A stretch of DNA of 32,922 bases from an uncultured Lachnospiraceae bacterium (GTDB taxonomy: Bacteria > Bacillota > Clostridia > Lachnospirales > Anaerotignaceae). Shown here one piece after another: positions 13,824 through 28,944 of the stretch (position 1 is its first letter; each line of letters starts with the position of its first letter). The translations under genes were made by a program, and so were the position numbers. The stretch covers positions 1-32,922 of the forward strand of contig CALWHO010000035.1 of the NCBI GenBank assembly GCA_944380405.1. The letters run 5' to 3'. Below the pieces are notes generated by a model. The model ran no database searches, had not been told where the DNA came from, and was given only the letters and a program-made list of their open reading frames with translations.

Positions 13824-13881
13824 TTGACAATTAAGTCTACAGTGTGTAGAATAAAATTACAGATATGGTCTACAACTTGTA
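13824..13881 (+). promoter_or_regulatory. Promoter and two BlaI-type operators
   Basis: TTGACA (13824-13829) and TAGAAT (13847-13852) with a 17-base spacer form a good promoter. Operator 1, TCTACA-GTG-TGTAGA (13836-13850), overlaps the spacer and -10; operator 2, TACAACTTGTA (13871-13881), lies between the start site and the ribosome binding site. Both carry the TACA/TGTA half-sites typical of BlaI/MecI binding, so autorepression is likely. Confidence 0.8.
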
Positions 13882-13895
13882 AACGAGGTGATTAT

Positions 13896-14252
13896 ATGAT
13901 AGGAAAAATGACAGAAACAGAGTTTGAAGTAGCTGATATAATATGGCAGCAAGAGCCTATACTTTCTACAAAACTTGTGGCTATATGTATTGAAAAATTT
14001 AACTGGAAAAAATCAACTGCCTATACAATATTAAAGCGTATTGAAAATAAAGGTATTATTGTAAATGAAAATGGTGTTATAAAATCCCTTATTAAAAAAG
14101 ATGAATGGGAGACTTATGAAAGTGAAAAGTTTATAAATGAAACATTTTCAGGATCACTTCCTAAATTTTTAACAGCTTTTTCAAGAGGCAGCAGGCTTAC
14201 AAAAAAAGAAATTGAGGAGTTAAAAAAGCTTATTGAGCAACAGGAGGGATAG
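13896..14252 (+). CDS. BlaI/MecI-family transcriptional repressor
   Basis: Winged-helix repressor of 118 residues, near the usual 120-130. N-terminal MTETEFEVADIIWQQ, helix-turn-helix containing WKKSTAYTILKRIENKGII, and a C-terminal dimer region (LPKFLTAFSRGSRLTKKEIEELKKLIEQ) fit the family. ATG at 13896 has GAGGTG upstream; an upstream TTG falls in the -35 box and is not a start. The gene is followed after 3 bases by the M56 protease gene, forming the usual repressor-sensor pair. In characterised pairs the repressor is inactivated by cleavage once the sensor is activated. No beta-lactamase or penicillin-binding protein gene is next to it, so the regulon is unknown. Confidence 0.88.
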   Translation: MIGKMTETEFEVADIIWQQEPILSTKLVAICIEKFNWKKSTAYTILKRIENKGIIVNENGVIKSLIKKDEWETYESEKFINETFSGSLPKFLTAFSRGSRLTKKEIEELKKLIEQQEG

Positions 14253-14255
14253 TTT

Positions 14256-16271
14256 ATGACTAATCTTTGTTTGGAAGTTATAAATTTGTTTTTGACAGGA
14301 AGCATTATAATTGTTTTTGTGATTTTGTTAAGGCTTTTAATGAAAAAAAGTCCTAAGATTTTTTTGTATGTTTTATGGGTTATTGTTTTTATAAGACTTA
14401 TATGTCCTTTTACAATAGAAACAGAAAAAAGTCCTGTTGTTAAAAATATAGTTTCAGAAGAAATGGTTAAAAGGGCAGTTAATACATCAGAAAATACAAA
14501 TAATTATGTATTTGAAACTGAAAGCACAGGTGGAAACTTTAGTTATCAGGAAAAAGAAATAAATAATATAGTAGTAATTGATATTGCAGCAGTAATTTGG
14601 GTTTTGGTTACAGCAGTATTTATATTAAAGGGCGTAATATCACTTATAAAGCTTAAAAAAAGCCTTTTAAATGCCAAGCATATTGAAAAGAACATATATG
14701 AAATAGAAAATATAAATACAGCTTTTGTTTTTGGAATAGTGCCTAAAATATATATACCAAATGACATTTCAGAAAATGAGAAGGCGTATATAATACTCCA
14801 TGAAAAAATACATATCAGCAGAAAAGATTATATTATAAAGTTTTTGGCATATATAATTCTTTCCATACACTGGTTTAATCCTTTTGTTTGGGCAGCATTT
14901 AAGTTTATGGAAGAGGATATGGAGTGCTCTTGTGATGAGGCTGTTATTGAAAAACTTGGAAAGGATATTAAAAAGGATTATTCAATGTCCATACTGCGTT
15001 TATGTGAAAAAGAAAGTAGTTTTTCAATAAATCCGTCTTTTGGAGAAAAGGCTGTTAAAGTACGTATTAAAAATATACTAAGCTATAAAAAACCAGCTGC
15101 TATAATAATCGCTGTTTCTGTTATATTGGCTATTTGTGGAGGATGTGCAATAATTTCTTCAGCACCTGAAAAGAAATCTATTGAGGAGCAAGCGGTGTTA
15201 TACGGTAGTGATATTTGTAAAAGCTATGCGGATACAGTCGATACTGAGGTTTTGGAATATAACGGAGAAGCCAATAAAAAAGCAGATTTTGAAAATTTAT
15301 ATAACGGTGTAGAGGTATGGGAGATTAAATACAATTTTAGAGCAGATACATCAGAAGAACTTCCGTCAACTGATAGTTGGTATCAGCAGGGAGATATTAT
15401 ATATGGTGAAGATAAATATCTATTGTTTGACAGCAGCAAAAATGAGCTGTTGTGCGAAATATGGGCTGTGGATTTAACAGGCAGTATTTCAAACCTTGAA
15501 ATTAATGCCAGAAAAGCCCTTGAAGAAATGGGCTATATATCAGGGCCTACATTTGACGGAGAACATGTTTTGGCAAAGTTTGAAATTTCAACAGGCGAAA
15601 CATGCCAGATGCTTATTTCACAGCCAATAGTTAAAGGTGATAGCGGCATATGGTGTGTGGAAAGATGGGCAGACGGAAATGGCAACATATATTACGAAGC
15701 ACCAGACGAGAACATGACAATAAATGAATACTATACTGAAATTCAAAAACAGTGTGATGAAGGTCATAGGGTTGGACTTTTGGATTACAAAGATGTTGCC
15801 TATACATTTATTACTGATTTGGGTCAGGAAATAAAAAATGTTGAGTTTATTGAAAACGCTTCATTTGAGGATTTTCAAAACATGCCGGAAAGTCTGTTTT
15901 TTGGCAGAATAACAAAAGCAGAGAAAAATGAAAATAATGTTTTAAGAATATATTTTAATAAATCAAGCTATTACTCAGCAGAAGAAAATAAAGAAGAGCT
16001 TAAAAATATGGGAATAGACCCAGATTATCTGCCAAATGGATACTATATTGATGATTGGGATAAATGGGGTACGTTTTTTGCAGTTGATGAAAATGCCGTA
16101 TATTCTATATTGGGAGAAGACCAGTATGGGAATATTGTAAGTATAGAATATAATAACTGGCAGGATTTTGAAAATTACTGCAAAAATGGTTTTCCATGGG
16201 AAAGTAATTATTTTTGGATAACAGTTAAGGCAGGAAAAATTACAAACATAACTCAGCAGTACATACCATAA
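14256..16271 (+). CDS. BlaR1-like M56 membrane metalloprotease with unrecognised sensor domain
   Basis: Membrane zinc protease of 671 residues. Hydrophobic helices at about 9-28, 34-52, 102-122, 193-213 and 280-300 frame the M56 catalytic site HEKIH (182-186) and a downstream acidic helix (EEDMECSCDEAVIEKLGKD) typical of the family. The final helix leads to a large outer domain of about 370 residues that lacks the SxxK, SxN and KTG motifs of penicillin-binding sensors. It has segments such as VEVWEIKYNFRADTSEELPS and ALEEMGYISGPTFDGE that I cannot name, and perhaps two subdomains. It probably senses an envelope signal and triggers loss of BlaI-type repression. It starts 3 bases after the repressor stop with GGAGGG as ribosome binding site inside the repressor end. 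Confidence 0.83.
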   Translation: MTNLCLEVINLFLTGSIIIVFVILLRLLMKKSPKIFLYVLWVIVFIRLICPFTIETEKSPVVKNIVSEEMVKRAVNTSENTNNYVFETESTGGNFSYQEKEINNIVVIDIAAVIWVLVTAVFILKGVISLIKLKKSLLNAKHIEKNIYEIENINTAFVFGIVPKIYIPNDISENEKAYIILHEKIHISRKDYIIKFLAYIILSIHWFNPFVWAAFKFMEEDMECSCDEAVIEKLGKDIKKDYSMSILRLCEKESSFSINPSFGEKAVKVRIKNILSYKKPAAIIIAVSVILAICGGCAIISSAPEKKSIEEQAVLYGSDICKSYADTVDTEVLEYNGEANKKADFENLYNGVEVWEIKYNFRADTSEELPSTDSWYQQGDIIYGEDKYLLFDSSKNELLCEIWAVDLTGSISNLEINARKALEEMGYISGPTFDGEHVLAKFEISTGETCQMLISQPIVKGDSGIWCVERWADGNGNIYYEAPDENMTINEYYTEIQKQCDEGHRVGLLDYKDVAYTFITDLGQEIKNVEFIENASFEDFQNMPESLFFGRITKAEKNENNVLRIYFNKSSYYSAEENKEELKNMGIDPDYLPNGYYIDDWDKWGTFFAVDENAVYSILGEDQYGNIVSIEYNNWQDFENYCKNGFPWESNYFWITVKAGKITNITQQYIP

Positions 16272-24762: not shown

Positions 24763-24870
24763 ATTATATTCCTCCTTTGTATTGGCTTTTATTTTATCAG
24801 ATAATTTCAAATTGGTATATAATAAAATTATTTCCATAGCTTTAAAGCTATACACATGGCGGGTTTTTTG

Positions 24871-24879
24871 TGATATAAT
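24871..24879 (+). promoter_or_regulatory. Extended -10 promoter for the LRR-VWA-MoxR genes
   Basis: TGATATAAT, an extended -10 with consensus TATAAT (24874-24879), 35 bases before the LRR gene start. No clear -35 element. Confidence 0.45.
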
Positions 24880-24913
24880 TTGCAGTAATTTTGATATGAA
24901 TTAGGTGGAAAGC

Positions 24914-25858
24914 ATGATATTTGGAGATTTTGAGTATTCCGTAAATGAAAATAACGAAATTATAATATATAAATACTTAGGCGAAAATTCATTTGTGTCT
25001 GTGCCTGAAAGCATAGATGGCAAAATAGTTACAGAAATAGGTGATGGTGCATTTAGGAACAAAAGATGCATAACAGATTTAATACTGCCTAAGGGTCTTA
25101 AAATAATAGGAAACTATGCTTTCTGTGAATGCAGAGGTCTTAAAGAGGTGTCTCTTCCAGAAGGGCTTTTGGAAGCAGGCGGTCACGCTTTTTATAACTG
25201 CCGAAATCTTGAAAAAATGGAAATTCCAACAACAATTGAGTTTATAGCAGACGGCTTTATTAAAAACTGCGAAGTTTTAAAAGAAGTTTATGTTATAACA
25301 GATGGCAGACTTGGAAGTGCCATTGCAGGTTTTTTGATTAACATTACAAATGAAATAGAAGTTACATTTGTAAAGCAAAACATGAAATTTTTACTTCCTG
25401 AGTATGATTACGAATATGTGGCAAATGCTCCTGCAAAAATATTTGTTACACTTACTCATGGTTCAGGTGAGTTTTTCAGAAGAGCCATAGAGTCAAAGGG
25501 CTTTGATTATAAGTTTTATGATGAGAATTTTAAAAGGGCAGTTTTGTCTGAGAAAAAAATAACTTCTGTTAAAATGGCACTTTGCAGAATAATGTATCCT
25601 TACAGGCTTGATGAAAAATACAAAGAAAGCTATATAAATTTTATAAAAGAAAATATAGCAGACGTAGTTTCTTATGCCTGTGAAAAAGACGATATATTAA
25701 TTATAGAAAAAATAGACGAAAACGGCTGCTTTAATAATGAAAATATTTCCGAAGCCATAGAGGAAGCAGCAAAAAGCACCAACAGCGAAATAAGCGCTTA
25801 TATAATGGATATTAAGCTTTCACGCTTTGGCAGAAAAAAGAAAACATTTGACCTTTAA
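24914..25858 (+). CDS. Cytoplasmic leucine-rich-repeat (BspA-like) protein
   Basis: Protein of 314 residues with no signal peptide or membrane helix. Residues 1-135 hold about four LRR_5/BspA-type repeats (GAFRNKRCITDLILPKGL, YAFCECRGLKEVSLPEGL, HAFYNCRNLEKMEIPTTI). The rest is mostly helical and unrecognised; it ends in a basic tail (SRFGRKKKTFDL). ATG 24914 has AGGTGG 6 bases upstream; a GTG 9 bases earlier is less likely. It is followed after 17 bases by a VWA-like gene and then a MoxR-type ATPase gene, so it likely serves as their partner or adaptor. BspA-type repeats are mostly known from surface proteins, so a cytosolic one in this setting is notable. Confidence 0.8.
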   Translation: MIFGDFEYSVNENNEIIIYKYLGENSFVSVPESIDGKIVTEIGDGAFRNKRCITDLILPKGLKIIGNYAFCECRGLKEVSLPEGLLEAGGHAFYNCRNLEKMEIPTTIEFIADGFIKNCEVLKEVYVITDGRLGSAIAGFLINITNEIEVTFVKQNMKFLLPEYDYEYVANAPAKIFVTLTHGSGEFFRRAIESKGFDYKFYDENFKRAVLSEKKITSVKMALCRIMYPYRLDEKYKESYINFIKENIADVVSYACEKDDILIIEKIDENGCFNNENISEAIEEAAKSTNSEISAYIMDIKLSRFGRKKKTFDL

Positions 25859-25875
25859 TTTAGTCTGGTGATTAT

Positions 25876-27330
25876 ATGAACGAATACGACATTATATATA
25901 AGCTGACGGAAGTTGGCGACAATATTTTGGAAACAACAAAAAGCAGAGTGTATATGTCTCTCAGGTTTTTGGCAATGGCTTTTGACGGACTTAAGTATGC
26001 CTTAAACGGTGATACTCCAAGGCTTGGAACTGACGGGTATTATATACATTACTCACCTGCGTTTTTGATGACAACATTTAAAGAAAACGATAAATGGCTG
26101 GCAAGAGCTTATGTCCATATTGTAATGCACTGTATATTCCGCCATGTTGTTAACAGAGATGAGAGAGAAGAAAGGCTTTGGAATTTAAGCTGCGATATAG
26201 CTGCTGAATACGTTATTGATAGCCTTAACAACAGATATTTAAGAGAAAACATGAGCGGTTTAAGACGTGAAACATATTCTCTTCTTGAAAAAAACGTAAA
26301 GGTATTAACAGCAGAAGGCATATATCGTTTTTTGGAAAATGAATATACCGACAGAGAAAAAATACACTCTCTTGAAATGGAATTTTTAAGAGATGACCAT
26401 AGTTTCTGGCGTGCTTATGATGACAATAATGAAAGCCAAGAGGGCGACAATGGCCCTGACGGTGACGGTAACGGCGAAAACGACGGTGACGAAAAAGACG
26501 GCGATGGCAACGGAAACGTAGCTTTCGGTCATACAGAAAAATCAAACGAAAAGCCTAAGAAATTAAATAAAGACGATTTTAATGACAAATGGAAAGACAT
26601 AAGCGAAAAAACTCAGACAGACATGGAGACATTTTCAAAAGACCAGGCAGAAGAAGCAGGGGCACTTATGGAATATGTCCGTGTTGAAAACAGGAAAAGA
26701 TATGATTATAAGGAGTTTTTAAGACGTTTTTCAGTAAACAGGGAAGTAACAAAGCTGGATTTAGATAGCTATGATTATATATACTACACTTACGGTTTAA
26801 AGGTATACGGAAACATGCCTTTAATAGAGGCTCTTGAGTATAAGGACTCTAAAAAAATAGAGGACTTTGTAATTGTTATTGATACCTCTGCCAGCTGTAG
26901 TGGCGATTTAGTGAAGGGCTTTTTGGCAGAAACATACAGCATACTTAGTGAAAACGAAAGCTTCTTTAGAAAAATAAATCTTCATCTTATACAGTGCGAC
27001 TCAAAAGTGCAGGAAGACACAATTATTACATGCAAAGAAGAGTTTGAAAAGTACATGGATAATTTTGAGGTAAAAGGCGGTGGCGGCACCGACTTTGTAC
27101 CTGCATTTGATTATGTAAACGAACTTTGCGAAGATAAAAAAATAGCAGAGCTTAAAGGGCTTATATATTTTACAGACGGCTATGGAACATATCCAAAGAA
27201 AATGCCTAAGTATGAAACGGCATTTGTATTTTTAAGTGAAAACTACGACGACAGCGGTGTTCCGCCTTGGGCTGTTGAAATAGTTGTTGATAGTGAGGAA
27301 TTTTATAAAGCAGCAAAAAAATTACAGTAA
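25876..27330 (+). CDS. VWA-like protein with DUF2201-type metallopeptidase-like N-terminus
   Basis: Cytoplasmic protein of 484 residues. The N-terminal region matches the putative metallopeptidase part of DUF2201 proteins, with HIVMHCIFRH at residues 81-90; the usual HExxH glutamate is replaced by Ile/Val, so peptidase activity is doubtful. A Gly/Asp/Asn-rich linker (about 184-215) follows, then a helical segment, then a VWA-like domain with a MIDAS-like DTSAS (D336, S338, S340), a GGGGTDF Thr loop and a FTDGYGTYP. VWA proteins next to MoxR ATPases typically work with them as metal-binding adaptors or chaperones. The gene ends 12 bases before the ATPase gene. Confidence 0.85.
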   Translation: MNEYDIIYKLTEVGDNILETTKSRVYMSLRFLAMAFDGLKYALNGDTPRLGTDGYYIHYSPAFLMTTFKENDKWLARAYVHIVMHCIFRHVVNRDEREERLWNLSCDIAAEYVIDSLNNRYLRENMSGLRRETYSLLEKNVKVLTAEGIYRFLENEYTDREKIHSLEMEFLRDDHSFWRAYDDNNESQEGDNGPDGDGNGENDGDEKDGDGNGNVAFGHTEKSNEKPKKLNKDDFNDKWKDISEKTQTDMETFSKDQAEEAGALMEYVRVENRKRYDYKEFLRRFSVNREVTKLDLDSYDYIYYTYGLKVYGNMPLIEALEYKDSKKIEDFVIVIDTSASCSGDLVKGFLAETYSILSENESFFRKINLHLIQCDSKVQEDTIITCKEEFEKYMDNFEVKGGGGTDFVPAFDYVNELCEDKKIAELKGLIYFTDGYGTYPKKMPKYETAFVFLSENYDDSGVPPWAVEIVVDSEEFYKAAKKLQ

Positions 27331-27342
27331 GGAGAATGTGTT

Positions 27343-28893
27343 TTGAATATAAAGCAGGCAAAAAACGAAATTAAAGACGCTGTTGAGGCATATTTAGCTA
27401 AGGACGAATACGGCGAATATATTATACCTATTGAAAGCCAAAGACCACTTTTACTTATAGGTGCTCCTGGTATTGGTAAAACTGCCATTATGAAGCAGGT
27501 GGCTTCTGAGTGCAATATAGGTCTTGTATCATACACAATTACACACCACACAAGACAAAGTGCCATAGGTCTTCCATATATTTCACAGAAAGAATTTGGC
27601 GGCAAAGAATATGCCGTAACTGAGTATACAATGAGCGAAATTGTAGCTTCTGTATACAATCAAATGGAAGAAACAGGTCTTAAAGAGGGCATACTTTTTA
27701 TTGACGAAATAAACTGTGCCAGCGAAACTTTAGCACCTGCAATGCTTCAGTTTTTACAGTACAAGACATTTGGCAGTCACAAAGTGCCTGATGGCTGGAT
27801 AATAGTTTCAGCAGGTAACCCACCTGAATACAACAAATCTGTACGAGAATTTGACATTGTTACCCTTGACCGTGTTAAGAAAATAGATGTTGAAGAAGAT
27901 TATGATGTATGGAAAGAGTATGCTGTAAAACAGAATGTCCATAGTGCCATTATTTCATACCTTGATGTACGAAAAGAAAATTTCTATACAGTAAGAAACA
28001 CAGCAGAGGGTAAAATGTTTACAACAGCCAGAGGCTGGGAAGACCTTTCCAGAATAATGACTGTATACGAAAAGCTTAAAAAGCCAGTTACATTTGATGT
28101 TATTTATCAGTATCTTCAAAATAAGAAAACAGCAAAGGATTTTGCCGGATATTTTGAGCTTTACAACAAATACAAAAAGGACTACTCAATTACAGGCATA
28201 CTTGCAGGGGAAATTGAGGACGCATATGTTGACAGACTTCGTCTTGCTTCATTTGACGAAAAGCTTAGCGTAATAAGCCTTATATTAAGTGCTTTAAACG
28301 ACGATTTCAAAAAAGCAGACTTTTTGGATATGTTTGTAACAGAGCTTCACACTGTTCTTAAAGATATGAAAGCATCTCTTTTAAGCAAGTTTGCAGAAGA
28401 TAAACGTCCAGAGGACATGATTATGCCTATAATTGAAATGCGTAAAAATGCCTTTGAAAAGAAAAAGAAAACAGGTCTTATGAAGAGGGACGAAGAAAGA
28501 TTTGAGCTTAAAATTCAGGAAAGACTTGAAGAAATGCTTATTGCCCTTAAAGGAAATGGCATATCAAAATGCAGCGATGCTTTTGAATATTTAAAAGAAC
28601 TTTTTGCTTCTGATGTGGAAAACAGAAGCACATTTATGGACGACACAGGTTATAAACTTGATAATGCATTTTCATTCCTTGAATACGTATTTGGTGAAAG
28701 TCAGGAAATGGTTGTGTTTGTAACAGAGCTTAACAGTGGATATTACAGCATTAAGTTTATAGACGAAAATGGCTGTGTTAAGTTCTATCAACACAACAAG
28801 AATCTTCTTTTTAAGGAAAGACAGAGAAACATAATTTCAGACATAGACGAAATTAATGCTATGATGGACAGCCTTAAACAGAGTAAACAGTAA
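27343..28893 (+). CDS. MoxR-type AAA+ ATPase
   Basis: AAA+ ATPase of 516 residues. Walker A GAPGIGKT (40-47), Walker B LFIDEINCA (about 117-125), sensor 1 in SAGNPPEYN and arginine-finger candidates in the following VTLDRVKK. This matches MoxR-like ATPases, which are usually about 300-350 residues; the extra C-terminal 190 residues are Lys/Glu-rich, partly coiled-coil-like (FEKKKKTGLMKRDEERFELK), then a mixed region. TTG 27343 is the start, with TAAGGAG 8 bases upstream; no nearby ATG fits. Third gene of the LRR-VWA-ATPase unit, ended by a terminator. It probably uses ATP to remodel a target presented by the VWA protein. Confidence 0.88.
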   Translation: MNIKQAKNEIKDAVEAYLAKDEYGEYIIPIESQRPLLLIGAPGIGKTAIMKQVASECNIGLVSYTITHHTRQSAIGLPYISQKEFGGKEYAVTEYTMSEIVASVYNQMEETGLKEGILFIDEINCASETLAPAMLQFLQYKTFGSHKVPDGWIIVSAGNPPEYNKSVREFDIVTLDRVKKIDVEEDYDVWKEYAVKQNVHSAIISYLDVRKENFYTVRNTAEGKMFTTARGWEDLSRIMTVYEKLKKPVTFDVIYQYLQNKKTAKDFAGYFELYNKYKKDYSITGILAGEIEDAYVDRLRLASFDEKLSVISLILSALNDDFKKADFLDMFVTELHTVLKDMKASLLSKFAEDKRPEDMIMPIIEMRKNAFEKKKKTGLMKRDEERFELKIQERLEEMLIALKGNGISKCSDAFEYLKELFASDVENRSTFMDDTGYKLDNAFSFLEYVFGESQEMVVFVTELNSGYYSIKFIDENGCVKFYQHNKNLLFKERQRNIISDIDEINAMMDSLKQSKQ

Positions 28894-28904
28894 TTTGAAA
28901 AATG

Positions 28905-28944
28905 AGCATACAAACTTAAAAAAAGTGGTTTGTATGCTTTTTTT
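28905..28944 (+). terminator. Rho-independent terminator after the MoxR-type gene
   Basis: Eleven-bp stem AGCATACAAAC/GTTTGTATGCT (28905-28915 with 28928-28938) and T8. The radical SAM gene starts 15 bases later, so it may depend on read-through or its own promoter. Confidence 0.88.

Follow-up and report, generated by a model that had tools for sequence, protein, structure and literature searches.

The analysis concerned three tightly spaced genes on the forward strand of contig C35 (CALWHO010000035.1; the whole stretch of 32,922 nucleotides is called the window here), which belongs to the 2.03-Mb draft genome, in 209 contigs, of an uncultured Lachnospiraceae bacterium (GCA_944380405.1). The first gene (24914..25858) encodes a leucine-rich-repeat (LRR) protein of 314 residues, counted from the ATG at 24914, the mechanically called open reading frame (ORF) beginning at a GTG at 24905. 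The second (25876..27330) encodes a protein of 484 residues made up of a DUF2201_N domain, an acidic linker and a DUF2201 VWA domain, and the third (27343..28893), read from a TTG start, encodes a MoxR-type AAA+ ATPase of 516 residues. The intergenic gaps are 17 nt (LRR to VWA) and 12 nt (VWA to AAA+). An original prediction, made from the sequence, had described the locus as a close-set LRR protein, a VWA protein with a metal ion-dependent adhesion site (MIDAS) and a MoxR-type AAA+ protein, and the ORFs, Pfam matches and MIDAS residues agreed with that description. No membrane-like stretch was detected in any of the three proteins by a simple hydropathy measure.

The three genes were found to be inherited together. 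Among 58 genomes of the same family, which include Candidatus Neoanaerotignum and Chakrabartyella, all three were present in 44, two in one and none in 13 (VWA and AAA+ genes in 45 genomes each, the LRR C-terminal domain in 44; Fisher p 4e-12, a value that overstates independence because the genomes are kin). The 13 genomes without the AAA+ gene were the same 13 that had neither the VWA gene nor the LRR domain, and the AAA+ and LRR-domain sets differed only in genome G013, in which the VWA gene stops within a few bases of the end of a cut contig. Places encoding the LRR C-terminal domain lay no more than 2.6 kb from the AAA+ gene in 56 of 60 cases, the remaining four being found 3.9 kb away (G021), 17.9 kb away (G014), on another contig (G016) and on contig C143 of the window's own genome, where the gene starts at the contig end. 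A set of named loci was also assembled from GTDB species genomes with the AAA+ protein alone as query, the best 80 of at least 584 matching stretches being kept, and linkage was counted on the 63 loci with at least 4.5 kb of upstream sequence; 9 of the 17 loci left out for having less also carried both partners. The VWA and LRR genes were both located within 6 kb of the AAA+ gene in 57 of these 63 loci, and the VWA gene adjoined it in 60. Besides the trio members, no flanking family occurred in more than 7 of the 80 loci, so that the LRR gene was the only steady neighbour of the MoxR-VWA motor pair. Chance neighbourhood was ruled out by the 57/63 linkage together with the pattern of all three genes in 44 family genomes and none in 13. 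The three genes are a real unit, and the refuting condition set for the original prediction, that the three families not be conserved together, did not apply.

The LRR protein matches LRR_5 in Pfam (1.6e-20) and comprises LRRs (about residues 1-128), a constant C-terminal domain (about 129-305) and a tail (306-314, ending in KKTFDL). It contains no hydrophobic stretch, its highest 19-residue Kyte-Doolittle mean being 1.2 and that of its N-terminus 0.61. The predicted lack of a signal peptide, such as BspA-type surface proteins would carry, was thus upheld, and the protein is probably cytosolic, as judged from its sequence. In the AlphaFold model (mean predicted local distance difference test score, pLDDT, of 93.2), BspA-type LRRs are followed by a mixed, mostly helical C-terminal domain, which on our own reading of the secondary structure may consist mostly of helical hairpins, and then by a tail of lower confidence, probably flexible given the pLDDT of 65 in the last block. 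The best VIA match was 6mlx_B (Z 17.1, root-mean-square deviation 1.8, 111 residues aligned), in a list that spans mainly residues 1-221. The LRR fold is accordingly shared with BspA-type surface proteins such as TpLRR (6mlx) and PcpA (4cp6), from which the window protein differs in being short and probably cytosolic, in carrying a C-terminal domain and a tail in addition to the LRRs, and in being tied to a MoxR-VWA operon. Searched alone, the C-terminal domain gave nothing above the Pfam cut-off. Across 45 aligned LRR proteins, Pfam identified LRR_5 in all 45, LRR_8 in 10 and one weak RFC1 match, with no catalytic domain.

Mean pairwise identity in this protein was 32.6% for the LRR part, 31.5% for the C-terminal domain and 49.5% for the tail, whose conserved codons (residues 308-314, KKKTFDL) were placed at 25835..25855 on the forward strand from the sequence, the alignments and the tail counts. 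The strict tail, defined as [K/R]-x-[F/Y/W]-x-[L/F/I] at the C-terminus, was present in 56 of 68 linked LRR proteins from the named loci and in 31 of 39 from the family genomes, and in none of 478 other complete ORFs of at least 150 residues, 112 VWA proteins or 116 AAA+ proteins. A loose F-x-L ending was found in 95 of 107 linked LRR proteins as against 9 of the 478 other ORFs, and in 72 of those 95 the penultimate residue was D or E. Complete LRR_5 proteins not linked to the motor pair had neither the strict tail (0/7) nor the C-terminal domain (0/7). Tail counts were taken from all complete six-frame ORFs, the named-locus and family sets sharing some genomes (e.g., L081 and G053); they were not taken from alignment A4, which holds 44 of 51 LRR proteins with the C-terminal domain plus the window protein, since five of the seven proteins left out of it (L105, L115, L116, L121, L133, L141 and L154) are without the strict tail. 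The remaining alignments (A1, A2, A3, A5, A6 and A7) are hand-picked subsets.

The VWA protein, for which a sequence search gave no solved relative, matches DUF2201 (VWA-like, 8.4e-13) and DUF2201_N (putative metallopeptidase, 8.2e-10), the two halves being connected by a variable acidic linker. Its MIDAS is complete (D336-T-S-x-S340, T405 and D434), and the DxSxS, T and D residues were invariant in 32 of 32 aligned rows (A6) and in 21 of 21 rows of a second alignment (A2), except for the Thr, which was kept in 20. In the N-terminal domain, H81, H85, H90, D107 and E111 were kept in every row of both sets, and the residue after the first His was M, S, L, I or V and never Glu (0/32 and 0/21), the window protein having HIVMHCIFRH in place of HExxHxxxxH. 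The original prediction of a metallopeptidase-like domain therefore holds for the family match and fails for the HExxH motif expected of an active DUF2201_N metallopeptidase. Because the catalytic Glu is missing in all 53 rows checked, the protein is probably no peptidase, and the zincin-like N-terminal domain probably serves as a metal-binding scaffold without catalysis. The Pfam label and the invariance of H81, H85, H90 and D107 would suit an ATP-dependent protease-like unit in which DUF2201_N cuts a remodelled target; with the Glu absent from every row, as against the HEVLH, HELSH and HELLH retained in three phage members of the family, this explanation was judged extremely improbable, and an active peptidase was rejected on the missing residue.

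The AAA+ protein matches AAA_5 above the Pfam cut-off (9.3e-8) and scores 17.8 bits against the MoxR profile AAA_3, whose cut-off is 27. As AAA_3 falls below its cut-off and a profile score is a proxy rather than a defining residue, the protein is classed from its sequence as MoxR-type, but divergent. Residues G40, P42-G43, G45-K46-T47, D121-E122, N159, R177 and R230 were invariant in 45 of 45 rows, covering the Walker A and B motifs and, by our own assignment of the last three, presumably the sensor and Arg-finger positions. In the structural model (mean pLDDT 85.4), the helix-2 insert hairpin of MoxR proteins is recognizable as strands 80-85 and 88-93 ahead of helix 97-111, the preceding residues 68-79 having pLDDT values below 50. 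The core (about residues 1-287) showed a mean pairwise identity of 71% and the helical extension that follows it 34%. A long C-terminal extension was indeed present as predicted, although it comprises nearer 229 residues (about 288-516, with a boundary that we drew from the model) than the 190 originally given. Foldseek returned NorQ chains as the best solved matches of the model, with CbbQ2 at rank 33.

NorQ-NorD is the iron-insertion chaperone of cNOR; in it the VWA protein is plugged into the MoxR ring, with the MIDAS proposed to bind an acidic site on the client (PMC9976466, PMC13036017). The window pair resembles it in combining a MoxR AAA+ protein with a VWA protein that has an N-terminal domain, a flexible linker and a complete MIDAS. 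It differs in its LRR third protein, its long helical AAA+ extension, the DUF2201_N nature of the N-terminal domain and the lack of an adjoining enzyme gene, the client gene that lies beside pairs of the NorQD/CbbQO type having no counterpart among steady flanking families. The Foldseek result and the NorD-like plan of the VWA protein would be in line with a metal- or cofactor-insertion chaperone of the NorQD/CoxDE kind, with the gene for its enzyme at another place in the genome. A PFOR gene lies beside the module in some genera, and at 3 of the 80 loci (L087, L104 and L113) there are neighbouring genes that we take, from our own reading of the sequences, to be LarB/LarC/LarE-like members of the nickel-pincer cofactor pathway. 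A metalloenzyme gene was never a steady neighbour, however, and with Lar genes at so few loci this explanation was regarded as quite improbable.

The interpretation that we favour, by a little more than even chances, is that the trio constitutes a three-component protein-remodelling machine in which the LRR protein serves as an adaptor that docks via its tail on the MoxR-VWA motor. By analogy with the family, the MoxR AAA+ protein would form an ATP-driven ring on which the VWA protein sits as NorD does on NorQ. The LRR protein would be an adaptor dedicated to the motor: it would dock there with its constant C-terminal domain and its exposed [K/R]-x-F-[D/E]-L-COOH tail and bind the target with its length-variable LRR face. 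The sixth ligand of the MIDAS metal of the VWA protein could plausibly come from the penultimate acid or from the free carboxylate at the C-terminus. ATP hydrolysis would then pull or twist the bound target and so activate, assemble or dismantle a cytosolic complex. What bears directly on this scheme is the co-inheritance and co-localisation of the genes, the conservation of the tail, the intact ATPase and MIDAS residues and the lost catalytic Glu. The LRR protein was read as an adaptor because, as the only steady partner of the motor, it has a free tail whose penultimate acid would take the part played by the client's acidic site in NorQ-NorD. The original suggestion that it gives specificity is the best supported by the sequences, and it is put forward as an inference.

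The same protein could instead be the client itself, folded, assembled or switched between bound and free states by the MoxR-VWA pair and then working alone. In described MoxR systems a steady neighbour is often the client, as with NorQD, and here the LRR protein is the only such neighbour, with a conserved C-terminal tail that could serve as an engagement tag. This possibility was nevertheless considered unlikely: of the three proteins, the LRR protein shows the lowest conservation (32-33% identity as opposed to 71% for the AAA+ core), its length ranges from about 264 to 1128 residues between genomes, resembling a recognition surface more than a fixed product, and its Pfam profile is without a catalytic domain. 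An adaptor is favoured over a fixed client, and not proven, because the LRR face is variable and there is no other steady neighbour.

Several observations weigh against the adaptor interpretation. Six of the 63 named loci are exceptions to the linkage, three without the LRR gene (L085, L109 and L148), one without the VWA gene within 6 kb (L120) and two without both (L125 and L158). The strict tail is missing from 20 of the 107 linked LRR proteins and even the loose tail from 12, and in the clade of L121, L151 and L154 an L-[ED/GE]-W ending stands in place of F-x-L. Several unlinked LRR_5 proteins end in KKIRFELV, which misses the motif by one residue, and for this reason the tail may be derived from a common BspA end strand. 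VIA-align, moreover, ties the AAA+ model with HslU, ClpX, p97 and others at Z 12-13 over residues 1-275, so that only Foldseek singles out NorQ. As a separate observation, LRR_5 proteins without the C-terminal domain form a family of their own in several family genomes (L076:362-1876, L168, L171, L173 and L189), most of them ending in or near KKIRFELV. Coevolution between tail and receptor was also considered, the L-x-W clade having changes at VWA positions 54, 373 and 444 and AAA+ positions 152, 220 and 447; nothing was drawn from these, as they come from three rows of one clade and E447 is kept in other tail-poor modules (A1).

The gene order LRR-VWA-AAA was found in 88 of 115 loci, VWA-AAA-LRR in nine and VWA-LRR-AAA in one, linkage being kept despite the changed order; the nine VWA-AAA-LRR loci group in one part of the AAA+ tree, alongside a few others. 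The window's own genome contains the module twice, the other copy having the VWA-AAA-LRR order (contig C61, L041:5117-8493). The LRR gene of this copy runs off the contig, and contig C143 (L042:32-952) starts inside a similar LRR gene; the assembly may have split a single gene into these two pieces. A search with the AAA+ protein at an E-value of 1e-60 detected the family in 33 of the 147 genomes covered at the order level; at the class level it was present in 8 of 147, and at the phylum level in 2 of 149. The weakest best match at the order level was 9e-175, far beyond the threshold, and the family is therefore well delimited. Carriers among the best 80 stretches include Blautia, Coprococcus, Anaerostipes, Oscillibacter and Caproiciproducens, the module being present in the commensals [Clostridium] symbiosum, Coprococcus comes and Anaerostipes hominis (loci L092, L103 and L129), while the odd labels of two metagenome-assembled genomes, a Muribaculaceae (L154) and a Paenibacillaceae (L143), may be binning errors. 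No relative was found on IMG/VR viral contigs and no long match on plasmids, where all matches had less than 80% cover and the 20 listed showed 21-28% identity. The 20 matches listed from GenBank phages included seven good short ones (H1-H7; at least 50% cover, 40-49% identity) to unannotated human fecal 'Bacteriophage sp.' records. Two such records (L165, MT835935.1, and L166, MT837836.1; UNVERIFIED, human-fecal, Mexico) hold all three genes in the arrangement LRR-VWA-AAA; they are probably contigs of bacterial origin that were deposited as phage. A phage- or plasmid-borne module was rejected on these grounds: IMG/VR yielded nothing, the plasmid matches were short and the phage records examined were probably bacterial.

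In the window, the trio is closed by an intrinsic terminator on the forward strand (28905..28944; 11-bp stem and T tract, fold -19.3 kcal/mol, z -5.74), and beyond it lies a radical SAM gene that is unrelated. On the same strand, the LRR gene is preceded by a promoter-like site (24851..24879; TACACA-17-TATAAT, extended -10 with TG), a consensus match only, with 10 of 12 positions agreeing and 28 such sites in the region where 15.7 were expected. Six operator patterns were tried and no conserved operator was found upstream of the trio among them, and Rfam gave no match at the locus. The trio is flanked upstream by an aminotransferase gene, msrA and a divergent HAD hydrolase gene and downstream by a PFOR gene. 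These neighbours also flank it in sister genera, and their recurrence there suggests vertical inheritance of the trio in those genera; as a clue to the client, the HAD, msrA and PFOR genes were dropped, this being genus-level synteny. Elsewhere in the window, a BlaR1-type M56 peptidase gene (14256-16271) stands directly behind a small ORF (13824-14252) that probably encodes its repressor.

Described MoxR-vWA ternary systems, in which a motor pair is likewise combined with a varying third component, raise another explanation, namely a defence role in which the LRR protein would be the sensor of an invader, with a threshold set by the MoxR-VWA pair, as in the VMAP and iSTAND systems. Four classes (VMAP, iSTAND, FtsH and beta-propeller) are set out in the available text of Kaur et al. 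2020 (PMC7159879), in which the term LRR appears only in a reference, and a 2021 paper adds iSTAND2 and TERNS3 (PMC8195603). The shared motor logic with a variable third component and the patchy presence in the order (33 of 147 genomes) would be consistent with such a defence role. Against it, the third component here is a BspA-type LRR protein, and Pfam identified no VMAP, iSTAND, FtsH or beta-propeller component in the 45 LRR proteins and none of the effector domains of the ternary conflict systems in the three window proteins. The AAA+ protein scored 19.9 bits with the bpMoxR profile, below the 27-bit cut-off, and PADLOC, applied to the trio, gave nothing for the LRR or VWA protein and only weak P-loop matches for the AAA+ protein. 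Together with the housekeeping synteny in sister genera and the lack of IMG/VR relatives or long plasmid matches, these results left a defence system improbable.

The same MoxR-DUF2201 families as those of the window pair occur in Thermus phage phiFa (gp34/gp30), Aeromonas phage phiA009 and PHROG 1297/1314 (phrog_1314 at 1e-41 and phrog_1297 at 7e-44, with 24% identity over AAA+ residues 1-290). The phage pairs differ in that HExxH is intact in three of three proteins, that the phiFa AAA+ protein, at 335 residues, is without the long extension, and that no LRR gene is annotated alongside, though most of the neighbours are hypothetical. In this family, Bacillus phage G gp576 (L162:3974-5152) matches the DUF2201 VWA protein and shows HEVLH as well as DTSGS; 'HNH endonuclease', as it and PHROG 1314 are called in RefSeq and PHROGs, looks like a wrong name. 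No description of an LRR, VWA and MoxR trio was found in the literature searched, as judged by titles and with few subscription papers covered, in accordance with the original prediction, whose author knew of no described function for this combination. By its sequence, the trio fits none of the ternary systems set out in those papers, and the LRR version appears to be new in the literature searched.

Adaptors program ClpX or p97 for different targets, and the trio might by analogy represent a new class of MoxR-VWA machine, with interchangeable LRR adaptors, a free [K/R]-x-F-[D/E]-L tail whose acid or carboxylate closes the MIDAS metal site, and lineage-specific targets chosen through the LRR face; this broader proposal is tentative and was held to be on balance doubtful. 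Beyond the original prediction, the analysis brought out the conserved LRR tail, the lost catalytic Glu and the second module copy in the same genome; of these, the tail with its constant C-terminal domain and a putative metallopeptidase with three His and no catalytic Glu appear, from the sequences compared, to be new. MoxR-VWA motors rank with the most poorly understood AAA+ machines, since only a few of them have a known client and docking rule. In a common gut clostridial lineage (at least 584 matching GTDB stretches), one motor would here be served by a separate, variable recognition protein through a short, portable docking tail. With that tail, the choice of clients by MIDAS-type partners could be tested directly, and the LRR face may provide a handle for finding the client.

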